A stretch of DNA of 64,000 nt from Lachnospiraceae bacterium (GTDB taxonomy: Bacteria > Bacillota > Clostridia > Lachnospirales > Lachnospiraceae): assembly GCA_016287675.1 (NCBI GenBank), contig JAEFAR010000001.1:1-64000 (forward strand). The letters run 5' to 3'. Positions 4,938 through 48,073 of the stretch are shown one piece after another (the first letter of the stretch is position 1; every line of letters starts with the position of its first letter). Below the pieces are notes generated by a model. That model made no database searches and was not told the origin of the DNA. It was given only the letters and a program-made list of their open reading frames with translations. Made by a program: the position numbers and the translations under genes.

Positions 4938-7589
4938 ATGCTACAGTTAAAAGACATCGTAAAGAATTACGAAATGGGCGACTCTAAAGTAGAGGCCCTC
5001 AAGGGAATTTCGATCAATTTCAGAAAAAGCGAGTTTGTATCTGTCCTTGGCCAGTCGGGCTGCGGAAAGACCACGCTTTTGAACATCATCGGAGGTCTGG
5101 ACGGTTATTCCTCCGGAGATCTGATAATCAACGGAAAATCCACAAAGAAATTCAAGGATGCCGATTGGGACACCTACAGAAACCATTCCATCGGCTTCGT
5201 ATTTCAAAGCTACAATCTTATTCCCCATCAAAGCGTTCTGGCTAACGTGGAACTTGCTTTGACATTGTCGGGAGTTTCTCCTTCGGAAAGAAAGAAAAGA
5301 GCTTCGGCCGCACTTGAAAGAGTGGGACTGGGCGATCAGCTTCATAAAAAACCAAATCAGATGTCCGGCGGACAGATGCAGAGAGTTGCCATCGCCAGAG
5401 CTCTGGTTAACGAACCCGATATCCTTCTGGCGGATGAACCCACCGGAGCACTTGATTCGGAGACGAGTGTTCAGATCATGGAACTCCTTAAAGAGATCTC
5501 CAAGGACCGTCTGATCATCATGGTGACTCACAACCCTGACCTGGCGGAAACCTATTCCACAAGGATCATCCGTCTTCTGGACGGCAGAGTGGTGGATGAC
5601 AGCAGACCCTATGACGGATACATCGATGAGGATGTGAATTCCTCTTCCAGAGACAAGGGGAAAAGGGCTTCAATGTCATTCATGACTGCCCTGGGGCTTT
5701 CTGCCAACAACCTTTGGACCAAGAAGGGAAGAACCTTCCTGACTGCCTTTGCGGGAGCCATCGGTATCATAGGTATTGCGCTGATCCTTTCCCTTTCGGA
5801 CGGATTTCAGAAGTACATAGACCGTGTACAGGAAGAAACACTTTCGAATTATCCCATTACCATTGAATCGGAAACCATGGATTTTTCAGCTCTGTTTTCC
5901 GCTATGGGTGGTGAAAGGGAAGAAAAAGAAGAAAAAGATGAGACGACAGACAAGGCGTCCGCCCTTGAGAGAAACGTGATAAAAAGCCTTGATGTCAGCA
6001 CAAACATGTACAATGCCATGGTCAGCAAGAGAAATGTAAACGATCTGGCAGAGTTTAAAAAGTTCATTGACAATGAAGAGAACGGCGTTCAGCAGCTTGT
6101 AAGCGCCATTCGCTATACATATGACCTTAATGTTAAGATCTACGGAACGGATCTTTACGGGGATTCCATCCGTGTTAATCCCTCCACAGTTATGGATTCC
6201 ATGGGAATGGGTAACATGTCTTCCGTTTACTCCATGTATTCATCAATGCCTGCCATGTCCATGATGGGAACGGATATGGACATTTTCGGAGAACTGATCG
6301 ACAATCCCGATCTTTTGGCACAGCAGTACGACGTGATCGCAGGACATTGGCCTCGGGACAAGACAGAGATGGTTTTTGTGGTCAGCGGGCGTAACTACGT
6401 GGAAGATATGGCTCTTTTCACACTGGGACTCAAGGATCAGTCCACTCTTTCGGCTTTCCTTAAGAATGAAGCCATTGAAAAGTCGGGCAAGGATGAGTAC
6501 AGTTATGATGATATCCTGGGACTTCGTTTCCGTTGTATCCTGGATTCCGATTACTATTCCTACGATCCTGACAGGAACGAGTGGCGTGTGATAGAAGAGG
6601 ATTCCGAGCAGTTTAAAGCAGTTCTTGAAAACGGCCTTGAACTTAAGATCGCAGGCATAGTAAGACCCAAGCCGGAAGCTGCGGCTACTGCCATCTCCGG
6701 TACTATAGGATACACAAAGGATCTTACTGAGTACATTATAAATGAGACCAATAATTCCGCTATCGTAAGAGCTCAAAGGGCAGATATCGAAACGGATGTG
6801 TTTACGGGTAAGCCCTTCTCGGATTCTGAAAATGCCGAGGCCGCTGCAAGCGAAGCAATGGATCTTTCCACCCTTACTCCCGAACAGCAGGCCTATCTTG
6901 CATCCCTTTCTGAAGAAGAATTGGAAAACCTGAGAAAACAGATGGCTGCATCGGCTGTTTCCAACGCAACCTATGAAGGCAATCTCAAGGCCTTGGGTGT
7001 TTGCGACCTGTCAGTACCTTCAAGCATAAGCATATATCCCAAGGACTTTGAATCCAAGGATCTTCTTGAAAATAAGATCAAGGAATACAACGAGAAGTGT
7101 GAAGCTGAAGGAAGAGAAGGAGAGAAGATCTCCTACACCGATTTCATCGGACTCATGATGTCCTCCATCAGTACCATCATCAATGCCATAACTTACGTAT
7201 TGATCGCATTTGTAGCCATTTCGCTGGTCGTATCGTCCATTATGATCGCCATCATAACCTACATTTCGGTGCTGGAGAGAACAAAGGAGATAGGTATCCT
7301 GAGAAGTATAGGTGCTTCAAAGAAGGATGTCTCCAGAGTCTTTAATGCCGAGACACTGATCGAAGGCTTTGTTTCCGGAGGGCTGGGTGTTCTGGTGACT
7401 GTGCTCCTTAACATTCCGATCAATGCCATCATCTATCATTTTGCGGGACTTAAGAACATTTCGGCTCTGCCTGTAAAATACGCGCTGATCCTGATACTCA
7501 TCAGCATCATCCTGACGGTGATCGCCGGTCTCATTCCTGCCGGAATGGCGGCTAAGAGAGATCCTGTTGAGGCTTTGAGAAGTGAATAA
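4938..7589 (+). CDS. Fused ABC transporter ATPase-permease (MacB/FtsX type)
   Basis: Single 883-aa polypeptide carrying an ATPase domain (residues ~1-230: Walker A GQSGCGKTT, signature MSGGQMQRVAIARAL, Walker B ILLADEPTGALDSET) and a MacB-like permease. The permease has one membrane helix near residues 265-290, a large ~430-residue extracellular region rich in acidic residues, and three C-terminal helices (~735-870) with the FtsX-domain motif ERTKEIGILRSIGASKKDVSRVF. Such type VII exporters act mechanically on envelope substrates or export peptides and antimicrobials; the substrate here is unknown. Fusion of both subunits in one chain is common in clostridia. It is a single-gene unit between its own promoter and a bidirectional terminator. 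Confidence 0.88.
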   Translation: MLQLKDIVKNYEMGDSKVEALKGISINFRKSEFVSVLGQSGCGKTTLLNIIGGLDGYSSGDLIINGKSTKKFKDADWDTYRNHSIGFVFQSYNLIPHQSVLANVELALTLSGVSPSERKKRASAALERVGLGDQLHKKPNQMSGGQMQRVAIARALVNEPDILLADEPTGALDSETSVQIMELLKEISKDRLIIMVTHNPDLAETYSTRIIRLLDGRVVDDSRPYDGYIDEDVNSSSRDKGKRASMSFMTALGLSANNLWTKKGRTFLTAFAGAIGIIGIALILSLSDGFQKYIDRVQEETLSNYPITIESETMDFSALFSAMGGEREEKEEKDETTDKASALERNVIKSLDVSTNMYNAMVSKRNVNDLAEFKKFIDNEENGVQQLVSAIRYTYDLNVKIYGTDLYGDSIRVNPSTVMDSMGMGNMSSVYSMYSSMPAMSMMGTDMDIFGELIDNPDLLAQQYDVIAGHWPRDKTEMVFVVSGRNYVEDMALFTLGLKDQSTLSAFLKNEAIEKSGKDEYSYDDILGLRFRCILDSDYYSYDPDRNEWRVIEEDSEQFKAVLENGLELKIAGIVRPKPEAAATAISGTIGYTKDLTEYIINETNNSAIVRAQRADIETDVFTGKPFSDSENAEAAASEAMDLSTLTPEQQAYLASLSEEELENLRKQMAASAVSNATYEGNLKALGVCDLSVPSSISIYPKDFESKDLLENKIKEYNEKCEAEGREGEKISYTDFIGLMMSSISTIINAITYVLIAFVAISLVVSSIMIAIITYISVLERTKEIGILRSIGASKKDVSRVFNAETLIEGFVSGGLGVLVTVLLNIPINAIIYHFAGLKNISALPVKYALILILISIILTVIAGLIPAGMAAKRDPVEALRSE

Positions 7590-42472: not shown

Positions 42473-43048
42473 ATGTTAAAAGATCTGGTTTTGAAAAACA
42501 GGAGCTACAGGGGATTTGATGAAAAATTCAAGGTTTCCGCGGAGATCCTTAAGGACCTTGTGGACGTTGCAAGACTTACGGCATCGGGAGCCAATGCACA
42601 GCCTCTTAAGTATCTTTTGATAGCGGATGAGGAAGGCGTAGGGAAGATGAACTCTTTAACGCGATGGGGAAAGATGCTTAAGGATGTGACTTTGCCTCAT
42701 CCGGGTCAGTTTCCCACGGCCTACATTTTGATCGTTGTCGATACGGGGATCTGTAAGGATCCCAATAAGGCGGACACGGATGTGGGGATCGCTGCACAGA
42801 CGATTCTTTTGACGGCGGTTGAAAAAGAGCTTGGCGGATGCATGATCGGCAATTTTGACAAAGAGCTTGCAGCCAAAACCTTTTTGAATAAAGCCGAGTA
42901 TGTGCCTGTTTTGGCAATTGCGATAGGAAAGCCTGTTGAGACGATAAAGCTGGTGGAAGTCGGAGAAGACGGCAGTACAAAGTACTATCGTGACGAAACG
43001 GATACACATTATGTTCCCAAAAGAAAGCTTGAGGACATTTTGATCTGA
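42473..43048 (+). CDS. Nitroreductase family flavoprotein
   Basis: 191-aa FMN-dependent oxidoreductase of the nitroreductase fold. RSYRGFD near residue 10 (FMN phosphate-binding Arg), ASGANAQPLKYLLI near 37, and GIAAQTILLTAVEKELGGCMIGNF near 100-125. The physiological substrate cannot be read from sequence. Single-gene unit. Confidence 0.87.
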   Translation: MLKDLVLKNRSYRGFDEKFKVSAEILKDLVDVARLTASGANAQPLKYLLIADEEGVGKMNSLTRWGKMLKDVTLPHPGQFPTAYILIVVDTGICKDPNKADTDVGIAAQTILLTAVEKELGGCMIGNFDKELAAKTFLNKAEYVPVLAIAIGKPVETIKLVEVGEDGSTKYYRDETDTHYVPKRKLEDILI

Positions 43049-43106: not shown

Positions 43107-44951
43107 ATGAACAATGAATTCTATAAACCGGAAATGATCTTATGCCAGATAGAGAGCATACGCATTTCGGAAAACATTCCGATGCATCGGATGACTTACG
43201 GCCTGTGCGACAGATCATTACCGGGAAAAGTATTGAACGGGCAGAATCGAAAACTGGATAAGCTTCTTATAGATGCTTTTTACCAGCGATTGGGAAGAAA
43301 CCTAAGAAATTTCGAGGCTCTTTTGGATGCTGATGAATACACTTATTATGAAGCACGGGAAGCGTTCAGGGATGCTTTTTCCAAAAATGACATCGAAGAA
43401 GCAAAAACTGCCGCAAAAAAGTATGCCTCCATGGACATCTGCAGCAGGAGCCATCTGCATCGTCAGATGGCGGAAATGTTTGACGTCAGCCTTATGATAA
43501 AGGAAAAGGAGGATCCCGAGTGCATACTCAAAAAGGCGAAGGATGCTTTGGAATTGACTGTTCCGGGATTCACACTTGAAAAACTGAAGGAATACTATTA
43601 CACGGAGACGGAACTGATACTTTTGGACATTATCCTGAAAGCGAGCCGCAAGCTTTTCGGCGATGCGTATGTTTATCCTTTTTACGATGATGTCTGTGAA
43701 TTGTACGGGGCTGCGAGATATGCCCAGAACGAACAGGTGCACCGCTTTGCACCGATGATCTATGCAGCTGCGCTTTTAAAGCTTAAGAGGGGGGATCTCT
43801 CCGAGGCTGCGGCACTTTCCGACCGTATGGTAAGAAATCTGGTGAATGACAATAAGATCAGGTATCTTGCGGAATTCCTCGAGATCAAAAGTAAAGCCGA
43901 AGGAGGGACCGTGGACGAACGATTTGCTTGTGTGATCAAAGAGGCGGTCATGAAGTATCACCCCGAATGGTCTCCCGATGAAGACATACAGATCTACTGG
44001 GAATACATGATCATTCCGGTCGGGAAGATCGTTAAGCAGAGACGACAGATGCTCGGGCTTTCTCAGGAGGATCTCACCAACTATAACGGAGAGACGATCT
44101 GCAGCATCGATACCGTGTACAGGCTTGAAAGAGGGCGACACACCATAAACTGGGAGGTTGAGAAAAAGATACTGAGTAAGCTTCGCCTGATGCCGGAGCG
44201 TTTCCACAGAGAATTCATGACGGACGATTATGATGATATAAAGGTCCTTAAGGAAGTGATCAATGCTCAGGCTACAGGTGATCTCGAAAAAATCAAAAAA
44301 GGCATAGAAGAGCTGGACAGGCGACATCAGGAGACTTATTTGCCGCATAACGAGCAGTACATCTCATTTTTAAAACAAAAGATGATGGGAATCCCGGGAA
44401 ATAACGGTGCAGACTCTGTGAACGAGTACAAAAGAACACTTTCCGTGACTATGCCGGGAAATCCAAAGGAAAACGGAGAGCTCGATGACTGCTATCCTTT
44501 CAACACCGAATCGATGATCCTGATGCTGATCGCGAGCGAGCTTTTCAAAAAAGGCGAAAAAGAAAAAGGTTTTGTTCTTTGCAAAAACCTTTTGGACAAT
44601 TATGAAAAGCAGGGAAACTACAGCAATACATTTTATAATTGTGTTACCAACATCGAGAGGCTGGTGGCGAGTGAGCTGGGAAATGTTTCCCGCTTTGAGG
44701 AGTCTGACAGGATAGCGAAAGAGAGCCTGATCAAATGCTTTCGTCATAACAAGCTCGATCAGTGGAGCAGCAACATTTATTGCCTGGCGTGGAACAACGG
44801 TGCCGACCCCGGTAAAAAGAAAGACAAGCAGACGGAATTGAGAGCTTCGTATGTTTTATCAAAACTGCAGAAAAAGAAAAGAACCGAACAATGTGCGGTG
44901 AATCAATGCAATCTTTATTACAGCGGCGGGATCCTTGACGACCTGATGTAA
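43107..44951 (+). CDS. Large regulator with two HTH_XRE-like domains and helical repeats (possible peptide receptor)
   Basis: 614-aa cytoplasmic protein, no membrane segment. An N-terminal HTH_XRE-like region (residues ~12-65: ENIPMHRMTYGLCDRSLPGK, then VLNGQNRKLDKLLIDAF) follows the pattern SQEELAxGICxxSxLSxIENG in degenerate form. Residues ~70-290 are helical, TPR-like. A second, better HTH_XRE lies at ~303-360 (KQRRQMLGLSQEDLTNYNG, DTVYRLERGRHTINWEVEKK). The remaining 250 residues are again helical (ESMILMLIASELFKKGEKEKGFVLCKNLLDNY). HTH plus TPR-like repeats is the layout of RRNPP peptide receptors (PlcR, Rgg, NprR), and a tiny secreted-peptide gene faces it. Function inferred. Confidence 0.75.
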   Translation: MNNEFYKPEMILCQIESIRISENIPMHRMTYGLCDRSLPGKVLNGQNRKLDKLLIDAFYQRLGRNLRNFEALLDADEYTYYEAREAFRDAFSKNDIEEAKTAAKKYASMDICSRSHLHRQMAEMFDVSLMIKEKEDPECILKKAKDALELTVPGFTLEKLKEYYYTETELILLDIILKASRKLFGDAYVYPFYDDVCELYGAARYAQNEQVHRFAPMIYAAALLKLKRGDLSEAAALSDRMVRNLVNDNKIRYLAEFLEIKSKAEGGTVDERFACVIKEAVMKYHPEWSPDEDIQIYWEYMIIPVGKIVKQRRQMLGLSQEDLTNYNGETICSIDTVYRLERGRHTINWEVEKKILSKLRLMPERFHREFMTDDYDDIKVLKEVINAQATGDLEKIKKGIEELDRRHQETYLPHNEQYISFLKQKMMGIPGNNGADSVNEYKRTLSVTMPGNPKENGELDDCYPFNTESMILMLIASELFKKGEKEKGFVLCKNLLDNYEKQGNYSNTFYNCVTNIERLVASELGNVSRFEESDRIAKESLIKCFRHNKLDQWSSNIYCLAWNNGADPGKKKDKQTELRASYVLSKLQKKKRTEQCAVNQCNLYYSGGILDDLM

Positions 44952-45002
44952 TAAAATGCAGGTACAAACATGCCCCACACTAAAGCAATGTCTGTACCTG
45001 CA
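44950..45002 (-). terminator. Hairpin between regulator and peptide gene
   Basis: 15-bp stem with one mismatch (44957-44971 with 44988-45002; arms begin TGCAGGTACA), followed on the minus strand by TTTTATTA. It fits as terminator of the peptide gene; on the plus strand it lacks a T run. Confidence 0.65.
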
Positions 45003-45049
45003 CGGAAGTTAGGAATAACTTTTAGGCATTTTAAACGGATGAAGGGTGG

Positions 45050-45190
45050 TTAACCTCTCAGATAATCGACCACCTCATTGTCATCCGCCAATTGCATGAC
45101 AGCAGGCTTCTCTTCCGATGCCGAAGCATTGTCGAAGCCTGCTTTTGGTGTTAACAATAATGCAATTATGATAATTATATACTTAAACAT
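45050..45190 (-). CDS. 46-aa secreted peptide precursor, candidate signalling peptide
   Basis: Small ORF beginning MFKYIIIIIALLLTPKAG: one lysine, then a strongly hydrophobic core, as in a Sec signal peptide, then ~28 polar, acidic residues ending in DDNEVVDYLRG. A signal-peptidase site is plausible after NASA (near residue 24). Length, signal plus short tail, and position beside a helical-repeat HTH regulator match Phr/PapR/NprX-type pro-peptides. I chose ATG 45190 over an upstream in-frame start because homology to signal peptides begins there; a GAGGCGGGG purine stretch precedes it. It has its own promoter-like site and terminator. It could be a chance ORF or a membrane micropeptide. Confidence 0.55.
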   Translation of the reverse strand: MFKYIIIIIALLLTPKAGFDNASASEEKPAVMQLADDNEVVDYLRG

Positions 45191-45218
45191 AAGCCCCGCC
45201 TCTTGTGTTTTTGCAGTT

Positions 45219-45248
45219 ATTATTCTGCCACAAAAACCAAGATTTGAA
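45219..45248 (-). promoter_or_regulatory. Possible promoter of the peptide gene
   Basis: Minus-strand TTCAAA, 18-bp spacer, AATAAT (5 of 6 to consensus), about 29 bp before the peptide start codon. Confidence 0.4.
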
Positions 45249-45379
45249 CACCGCAAATATGTCTTTTTTTAAAAAGTGGTAAATTTTTTTGAAGTGAAGG
45301 ATTGATCTTTAAAGGTGAACAGTTACCTTATCGCATACTTTTCCATATAAGCTGCTTTTCAGTCCAACTTGCCGCAACC

Positions 45380-45445: not shown

Positions 45446-46234
45446 ATGAATAATCTGGTAAGATGGTTTAAAAGTATAAAGAAAGAACTCTTTGTTCTCG
45501 GAGTGCTGAGCATAGCTGTGGGCGCCGTTATGGTGATCTATCCGGAAACTGTCAGCAAGGTGATCTGCTATGTGATCGGAGCGCTCCTTGTTGTTTCGGG
45601 AGCATTTGTCCTGACGGCCATTCTGGTGCAAAAAGGGACAAAGCCCTTTACATTCAGAGTGGTGGCAGCTGCTCTTGCTTTAGCTGTAGGCTTCCTTTTC
45701 ATTTTCGGAGCCGATTTTGTTTTTGACATCCTGTGGGTGTTCATAGGTATCGGTATCATCATGAACTCTTACTTTAAGACTCAATATGCCTATGAGCTCA
45801 AATTTTCGGGAAGTCCCAAGTGGTGGGTCAATCTTGTGATCTCCATGATCTCACTGGCATTGGGGATCATCCTTATCCTTGAAAGGGATGCGGCTCAAAG
45901 CACCATGATACGTCTTACGGGAATTTTTCTGGCTGTCGACGGACTCTGCGACCTGGCATCCGTCTTCACTTTCCTTGCCGAATTTAAAAGGATAAGGAAA
46001 GAGGAAAAGACAGCGGAAAAAGAAAAAGCCATGCAGGAAAAACTTTCCAAAAGAGAAGCGAAGCTTGCAAAGAAGCTGGCAAAAAAGAAAAAGAAAGAAG
46101 AGTCTGTTATAAATTTAAGTGAAGTTGTAATGGAATCAAGAGAGCAGGCAGCAAACGAAGAGGAGAACTCAAAGCAGGAGACCTCAGATCCCGGTGAAAG
46201 GGAAGAAGCTGTCGGCGAAGAAAAAAACAGTTAA
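45446..46234 (+). CDS. DUF308/HdeD-like membrane protein
   Basis: 262 aa. Six hydrophobic segments between residues ~18 and 185 in the paired pattern of DUF308 (VLSIAVGAVMVIYP; VICYVIGALLVVSGAFVLTAIL; AAALALAVGFLFIFG; ILWVFIGIGIIMNSYF; ISMISLALGIILIL; GIFLAVDGLCDLASVF). The cytoplasmic tail (~190-262) is a charged Lys/Glu coiled coil (KLSKREAKLAKKLAKKKKK), not part of the usual family. Function unknown; the E. coli relative HdeD is linked to acid resistance. CAGGGAGG precedes the start. Confidence 0.8.
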   Translation: MNNLVRWFKSIKKELFVLGVLSIAVGAVMVIYPETVSKVICYVIGALLVVSGAFVLTAILVQKGTKPFTFRVVAAALALAVGFLFIFGADFVFDILWVFIGIGIIMNSYFKTQYAYELKFSGSPKWWVNLVISMISLALGIILILERDAAQSTMIRLTGIFLAVDGLCDLASVFTFLAEFKRIRKEEKTAEKEKAMQEKLSKREAKLAKKLAKKKKKEESVINLSEVVMESREQAANEEENSKQETSDPGEREEAVGEEKNS

Positions 46235-47586: not shown

Positions 47587-47615
47587 TTGCAAAGAATTTC
47601 AATAAATGGTACAAT
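47587..47615 (+). promoter_or_regulatory. Promoter of the Thr/Pro-rich lipoprotein gene
   Basis: TTGCAA, 17-bp spacer, TACAAT, 38 bp before the start codon. Confidence 0.65.
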
Positions 47616-47653
47616 TTCCGCGTAAGCCATCGAAAGGAGGCAATACAAGAGAT

Positions 47654-48073
47654 ATGAAGAATAAGATGAAGAGAAGAATTATGGAAGTTGTTTTATCTGC
47701 CCTTTTGGTTATGAACGTTGCGGCAGTTGCAGCGTGCGGTGATAAGGAAGAGCCTACACCCACACCTACACCCACCGTTGCCGTTGCTACACCCACCAAG
47801 GCACCTACAAACACTCCCAGCCCCGCACCCACAGCTACAAACACACCCAAGCCTACAGCAACAGCTACACCGAAGCCCACAGCAACGGTAGCTCCCACTG
47901 CAGCGCCTACAACAGCTCCTACAACGGCTCCTACAGCTGTTCCTACAACAGCTCCTGCCAATGATGATACACCTAAGACAGGTGAGAGCGATGTGTTTGG
48001 TCTTCTCGGTATCCTTGCTGCAGCAAGTGCCGTAACATTCTTTACGGTTTCCAAGCTTACACGCAAAAGCTGA
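47654..48073 (+). CDS. Small lipoprotein with Thr/Pro spacer and LPxTG-like tail
   Basis: 139 aa with no globular domain. Signal sequence with lipobox AVAAC (Cys near residue 28), then ~65 residues made almost wholly of Pro, Thr, Ala and Lys (TPTPTPT, then APTTAPTTAPT), then TPKTGES, a hydrophobic helix (VFGLLGILAAASAVTFF) and a basic end (KLTRKS). The tail reads like a sortase signal with Thr in place of Leu in LPxTG. Having both a lipid anchor and a sorting-type tail is unusual. The role is unknown; perhaps a wall spacer. AAAGGAGG is 13 nt before the start, a rather long gap. Confidence 0.72.
   Translation: MKNKMKRRIMEVVLSALLVMNVAAVAACGDKEEPTPTPTPTVAVATPTKAPTNTPSPAPTATNTPKPTATATPKPTATVAPTAAPTTAPTTAPTAVPTTAPANDDTPKTGESDVFGLLGILAAASAVTFFTVSKLTRKS

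Follow-up and report, generated by a model that had tools for sequence, protein, structure and literature searches.

Closest described systems

The closest described counterpart of the locus analysed here is the PlcR/PapR pair of the Bacillus cereus group, in which PapR, a 48-aa secreted propeptide with its signal at the C-terminus, is encoded beside the receptor gene. Our locus lies in a 64,000-nucleotide stretch of DNA from a Lachnospiraceae bacterium, hereafter the window. Together with its relatives, it resembles PlcR/PapR in having a helix-turn-helix (HTH) and helical-repeat unit that can be aligned over its full length, a putative dyad operator, and a secreted-type propeptide gene, with a candidate signal at the C-terminus, beside the receptor gene. 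The differences are that the receptor units come two per chain or in two adjacent genes, that the propeptide gene is convergent whereas that of PapR is co-directional, that the palindromes are much longer, that the acidic tails of the propeptides are unlike PapR, and that the hosts are Lachnospiraceae.

The Rgg receptors provide a second point of comparison. In group III Rgg/SHP systems, such as rgg1299 of Streptococcus thermophilus, the peptide gene is convergent and overlaps the 3' end of the receptor gene (PMC13361665), a layout common to the relatives of the window pair. Links to radical-SAM RiPP clusters, as in the Rgg-controlled RaS-RiPPs, also recur in some double-receptor loci. By contrast, Rgg is a single unit and the SHPs, which PptAB exports, are short and hydrophobic, so that the double receptor and the longer, Sec-leader-like propeptides with acidic tails place the present systems outside group III. 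Candidate families of the RRNPP_detector survey likewise have a receptor adjoining a 10–100 aa propeptide gene; this survey keeps receptors of 250–500 aa with TPR models, and double receptors of ~600 aa thus fall outside it by design (PMC10075063). The literature searched, with subscription papers and preprints outside its scope, contained no paper combining RRNPP receptors with Lachnospiraceae and no case of two fused PlcR-type receptors in one protein. An initial annotation of this DNA had proposed an RRNPP-like pair new to that group in its two HTH domains and its convergent layout: the pairing is supported by PlcR-type profiles and by a recurrent small open reading frame (ORF), and the two HTH domains have no counterpart in that same literature, whereas the convergent layout was already described in group III.

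The regulator and its predicted receptor units

The regulator gene (43107–44951, plus strand) is an open frame of 614 codons, predicted to encode a double PlcR-type receptor and transcription factor; its orthologues in the genus are 64, 53, and 49% identical, and its nearest named relative comes from the Lachnospiraceae MAG RUI274. When 397 genomes of the Lachnospiraceae were searched, the homologues retrieved were of two sizes, ~600 and ~310 aa. Using a single-unit profile built from the short (~310 aa) relatives only, we found that both halves, HTH and repeats included, match it in 53 of the 53 double-unit proteins sampled. In the window protein, the first unit (residues 15–265; 43149–43901, plus strand) combines a degenerate HTH with helical repeats, aligns with profile positions 10–258 (E 3.8e-24), and falls in the clade of N halves, and the second (residues 305–595; 44019–44891, plus strand) combines a clear XRE-type HTH with helical repeats, aligns with positions 6–288 (E 1.6e-29; 99.7% against the single-unit family by hhalign), and falls in the clade of C halves. 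The C-terminal HTH gives a weak Pfam/NCBIfam match, Pfam sees no other HTH in the protein, and the N-terminal one is detectable solely through its homology to the single-unit profile, so that the count of two HTHs per chain comes from profile alignment. By homology, the 614-aa chain consists of two PlcR/Rgg-type units of ~300 aa each, in line with the two HTH regions and helical repeats noticed in the initial annotation. With this length and two units, it departs from the 250–500 aa and one unit per chain by which RRNPP receptors are recognised; each half fits that definition, as do the split relatives.

Among PDB entries, the single-unit profile matches PlcR over its full length (positions 4–290, E=1e-25), followed by Rgg, ComR, and Rap. 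Pfam RNPP_C is found in 11 of 16 single units and 4 of 18 doubles, the A1 profile matches over the C half (1.1e-11), and TPR models of Pfam match up to nine of 16 singles for one model. The window regulator itself matches neither RNPP_C nor any TPR model of Pfam, and a profile of its four orthologues gives no match reaching PlcR, whereas between the genus-orthologue profile and the family of single units the match is certain (hhalign 99.7%, E 5.9e-26). AlphaFold (AF2) models of the window regulator and of one relative are of low confidence (pLDDT 47.6 and 42.5); their structural matches by Foldseek and VIA are generic TPR proteins, with PlcR (Z 14.1) tied at the top. Since the orthologue group of the window is divergent and does not reach PlcR directly, it is the family-level placement, where RRNPP homology extends over the HTH and repeat region, that carries its assignment: as judged from these profiles, the regulator belongs to the PlcR/RRNPP kind, the window member being placed through its family.

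The predicted propeptide gene of the window

Convergent with the regulator gene, their stop codons 98 bp apart, lies the predicted propeptide gene (45050–45190, minus strand), which encodes the 46-aa sequence MFKYIIIIIALLLTPKAGFDNASASEEKPAVMQLADDNEVVDYLRG and is preceded by a four-nucleotide Shine-Dalgarno match, GAGG (45199–45202, minus strand; AAGAGGCGGGGCTT-ATG). With 46 codons and a distance of 98 bp, it falls within the 10–100 codons and direct adjacency usual for RRNPP propeptides. The hydrophobic, leader-like N-terminus, as judged by hydropathy, and the acidic tail reported in the initial annotation are confirmed in the sequence. The leader likely extends to about NASA/SEEK, a cleavage site placed by eye following the A-x-A rule, and the C-terminal PAVMQLADDNEVVDYLRG is the candidate signal. 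Between the two genes, a hairpin (44957–45002) with a 10-bp stem (RNA fold −20.5 kcal/mol, z −3.6) is followed on the minus strand by TTTTATT and likely terminates the propeptide transcript; in the orthologous locus L023 the same place is occupied by a hairpin whose stem, by eye, differs in sequence. The terminator claimed earlier is thus likely, whereas the promoter claimed with it is no better than chance (9 of 12 matches; three such sites in the region against 1.6 expected).

Two orthologous loci allow the small ORF to be checked. That of L023, located before the contig end, reads VVDDNEETYCFRG and then stops, with the same 98-bp offset between stop codons, and that of L022 reads VIQMADDELSDPYYRLNYT, also followed by a stop. 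Both retain the C-terminal ADDE/DDNE core and, compared with L023, the frame, the stop, and the DDNE/RG residues are kept with synonymous changes at the N, E, and G codons. The pN/pS of the peptide pairs (0.52–0.67) is a weak indicator, derived from a protein-guided alignment with no control. Its shortness, the poor promoter match, and a Shine-Dalgarno match of four nucleotides are what might be expected of a frame that arose by chance in 3' intergenic DNA; a comparable convergent ORF appeared in just seven of 2000 dinucleotide shuffles of the region, and this, with the conservation in both checkable orthologues and the recurrence across the family described below, makes a chance origin extremely improbable.

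Predicted propeptide genes across the family

To count such genes, we fixed a rule: an ATG start, 35–80 codons, a Shine-Dalgarno match of at least 4 nt, a hydrophobic N-terminus, and a stop at most 150 nt from that of the regulator. A convergent ORF satisfied it beside 34 of 51 double regulators, as against 2 of 129 control genes in the same DNA (Fisher p 1e-21), so that a signal-like ORF adjoins most doubles, as the initial annotation would have it. Among the 17 remaining doubles, two or three have a convergent ORF by eye and two more a co-directional peptide gene. In the usual geometry the stop codons overlap (offset −4). Convergent ORFs also accompany three of four tandem pairs and one of 12 lone or truncated single units, to which later finds added two lone units (L134 and L142). 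Doubles that came to light once the rule had been set include L125 and L132, both with the ORF, and L124, which is 57% identical to L064 and has no convergent peptide ORF. L128 carries a frameshift, and a convergent ORF accompanies the partial receptor L130. The peptide gene of L099 is frameshifted, and at L089 (G077:C5, 3298–3480) an operator palindrome lies downstream of the double regulator with no intact peptide ORF, possibly through loss of the peptide.

A typical propeptide consists of MKK, a hydrophobic leader, and a tail of 20–45 residues rich in D, E, and P. The paralogous receptors L103 and L104 are 78% identical and their peptides 39%, as expected if signals diversify fast; the two loci, ~10 kb apart (G069 contig C77) with nearly the same operator, represent a possible recent duplication with signal divergence. 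The short hydrophobic stretch could also suggest a membrane peptide (type I toxin-like, immunity, or antimicrobial) controlled by the regulator and carrying no signal, all the more as several relatives adjoin bacteriocin or RiPP genes and as type I toxin-antitoxin loci also have convergent small hydrophobic ORFs. Yet the hydrophobic part is an N-terminal leader, followed by a Pro/Asp/Glu-rich and usually acidic tail of the length given above, as in propeptides of the PapR/Phr type, and the partner is homologous to peptide receptors. We consider such a membrane peptide very unlikely and favour a propeptide.

Palindromes upstream of the propeptide genes

Inverted repeats with a score of at least 14 occur within 250 nt upstream of 22 of 40 propeptide genes, compared with 16 of 133 other genes. 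Their arms reach 33 nt, and many centres lie at −80 to −92 from the propeptide ATG, often ~87 bp before it. Near-perfect repeats with arms of 24–33 nt precede the peptide genes of L064, L065, L074, L097, L103, L104, and L106, with centres mostly 82–90 nt before the ATG (146 nt in L106). The arms vary between systems and the symmetry is kept, and the arm mismatches on the sense strand (five G.T, nine A.C, and four others) have no wobble bias, which together favour a DNA dyad bound by protein rather than a hairpin in RNA. Having two HTHs per chain is not an exclusive explanation for the palindrome length, since the single-unit L142 also has 24-nt arms. Palindromes of the form CCATGAC...GTCATGG are nearly unique in each genome and are located at the peptide promoter. 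A further one (L148; G224:C14:27110–27161) has no regulator or peptide gene nearby and follows closely on a gene for a product that, by eye, resembles MecA.

In L022 the palindrome reads CGCAAATTTGTCAAA-15-TTTGACAGATCTGCG, with its centre near −84. The window contains a single match to its arms, the candidate operator half-site GACATATTTGCG (45252–45263, minus strand), 62–73 nt before the propeptide ATG, which is identical at 11 of 12 and 10 of 12 positions to the L022 arms and at the same distance from the ATG within 1 nt. We regard it, with moderate confidence, as a likely binding site; the window has no recognisable second arm, which has been either lost or changed.

The window member is thus atypical in its 98-bp gap, its one recognisable operator half, and the lack of adjoining RiPP genes. 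A palindrome reduced to one half and a stop offset of 98 bp instead of about −4, along with the operator without an intact peptide at L089 and the frameshifted peptide of L099, would fit a 46-codon ORF that is a decaying or non-signalling relic beside a PlcR-like sensor and no longer part of a working pair. We nevertheless find this unlikely: both genes are open, the hairpin is kept at the same place, and the frame, stop, and DDNE/RG residues survive synonymous change relative to L023, and are kept relative to L022 too. A working receptor–propeptide pair remains the preferred reading.

Neighbouring genes and candidate targets

Divergent from the propeptide gene across the operator region, a gene for a DUF308/HdeD-like membrane protein (45446–46234, plus strand; Pfam DUF308, E 3.8e-13) is, from this layout, a candidate target of the regulator. 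Just upstream of the regulator lies a nitroreductase-family gene (42473–43048, plus strand; Pfam Nitroreductase, E 1.8e-16); this order is the same in genome G001 and not in G003, which places the gene outside the core of the system. Farther along, positions 47606–48073 (plus strand) encode a 155-aa secreted-looking, surface-protein-like product that has a long repeat rich in Thr, Pro, and Ala and, at its C-terminus, a hydrophobic segment.

On the far side of the operator, the systems examined usually have a larger gene oriented away from that of the peptide and, in several genomes, the operons in this position are, from their gene content, RiPP or bacteriocin-like clusters. Such loci, picked for that appearance and not as a census, include a PapB-like radical SAM protein with an ABC exporter (L161), ThiF-PqqD with an M16-like peptidase and ABC genes (L162), an AlbA-like radical SAM protein with ABC genes (L163), and a secreted protein with ABC genes (L165). 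L164, picked likewise, has a CXXX-repeat maturase (TIGR04115 above cut-off), a Cys-rich precursor, and an ABC exporter beside a double regulator whose own peptide gene was not found.

Probable origin and spread of the double receptor

When all halves and singles are placed in one tree, 46 N halves group in one cluster and 45 C halves in another. Four loci (L092, L106, L110, and L116) have the unit pair as two adjacent overlapping genes, and there the N halves are joined by the upstream gene and the C halves by the downstream one. This sorting by position is most simply explained if the chain derives from an ancient pair of receptors whose order was kept and which was fused in most lineages. 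Doubles of separate origin apparently form two further lineages, L026/L027/L062/L070/L078 and L029/L074, and, with weak support for the deep branches, the number of fusions is uncertain. Across a class-wide sample, only the family Lachnospiraceae gave double-unit matches; one double, L029, belongs to a different family within the order. Searches of phage, plasmid, and viral-contig sequences returned no relative and so lend no support to a mobile or phage origin.

The genome of the window has a second double regulator, L026 (G000 contig C48, 3299–5443), from one of the separate fusion lineages, with a co-directional peptide gene (MKVLKIFSFSF...ISVANEEWDDNSTTHYDNA); alongside are genes for a C39-like peptidase and for what looks, from its sequence, like an MFS-type transporter. 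Its orthologous system L027 has at 5593–5661 a 22-codon ORF, MKTVYSISGQGEEWEDDPTLEY, with a good Shine-Dalgarno sequence; it lacks a leader and may be either a signal made without one or the result of a deletion. L029 (G051 contig C141) lies immediately upstream of an apparent phosphopantetheinyl transferase gene and a large NRPS-like gene, with no obvious peptide gene.

Proposed mechanism and significance

Taken together, homology and gene layout indicate that the pair most probably constitutes a peptide quorum-sensing system of the PlcR/PapR type. The 46-aa propeptide would be made, exported by Sec through its hydrophobic leader, and trimmed to a short acidic C-terminal peptide. This would be re-imported by oligopeptide permeases (Opp), transporters that are present and whose role here is presumed; SBP_bac_5 matches in the genome of the window number nine (about seven proteins). 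Inside the cell, by homology, the peptide would bind in the helical-repeat groove or grooves of the regulator, a covalently joined receptor pair with two DNA-reading heads that may function as a dimer would. The regulator is predicted, from homology and the palindromes, to read a DNA dyad that precedes the propeptide gene; its first target would then be its own signal, in a feedback loop, together with, from the layout, the divergent gene or operon.

More broadly, and with somewhat less assurance, we lean towards the view that the Lachnospiraceae have a large branch of peptide-based quorum sensing that has gone undescribed, in which an ancient PlcR-like pair would have been fused into a four-part chain of two DNA-reading heads and two peptide pockets, each chain having its own convergent propeptide and long palindromic operator, and many of them acting on operons for RiPPs or bacteriocins. 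The pockets may divide the work between them, which, if true, would be a logic that no homodimeric RRNPP receptor has. The double design is common to dozens of relatives among the Lachnospiraceae, dominant anaerobes of gut and rumen. If this reading holds, the family would offer dozens of testable pheromone–receptor pairs, synthetic peptides could switch on silent RiPP and bacteriocin clusters, and studies of DNA reading by RRNPP receptors would gain a natural receptor pair joined in a single chain.
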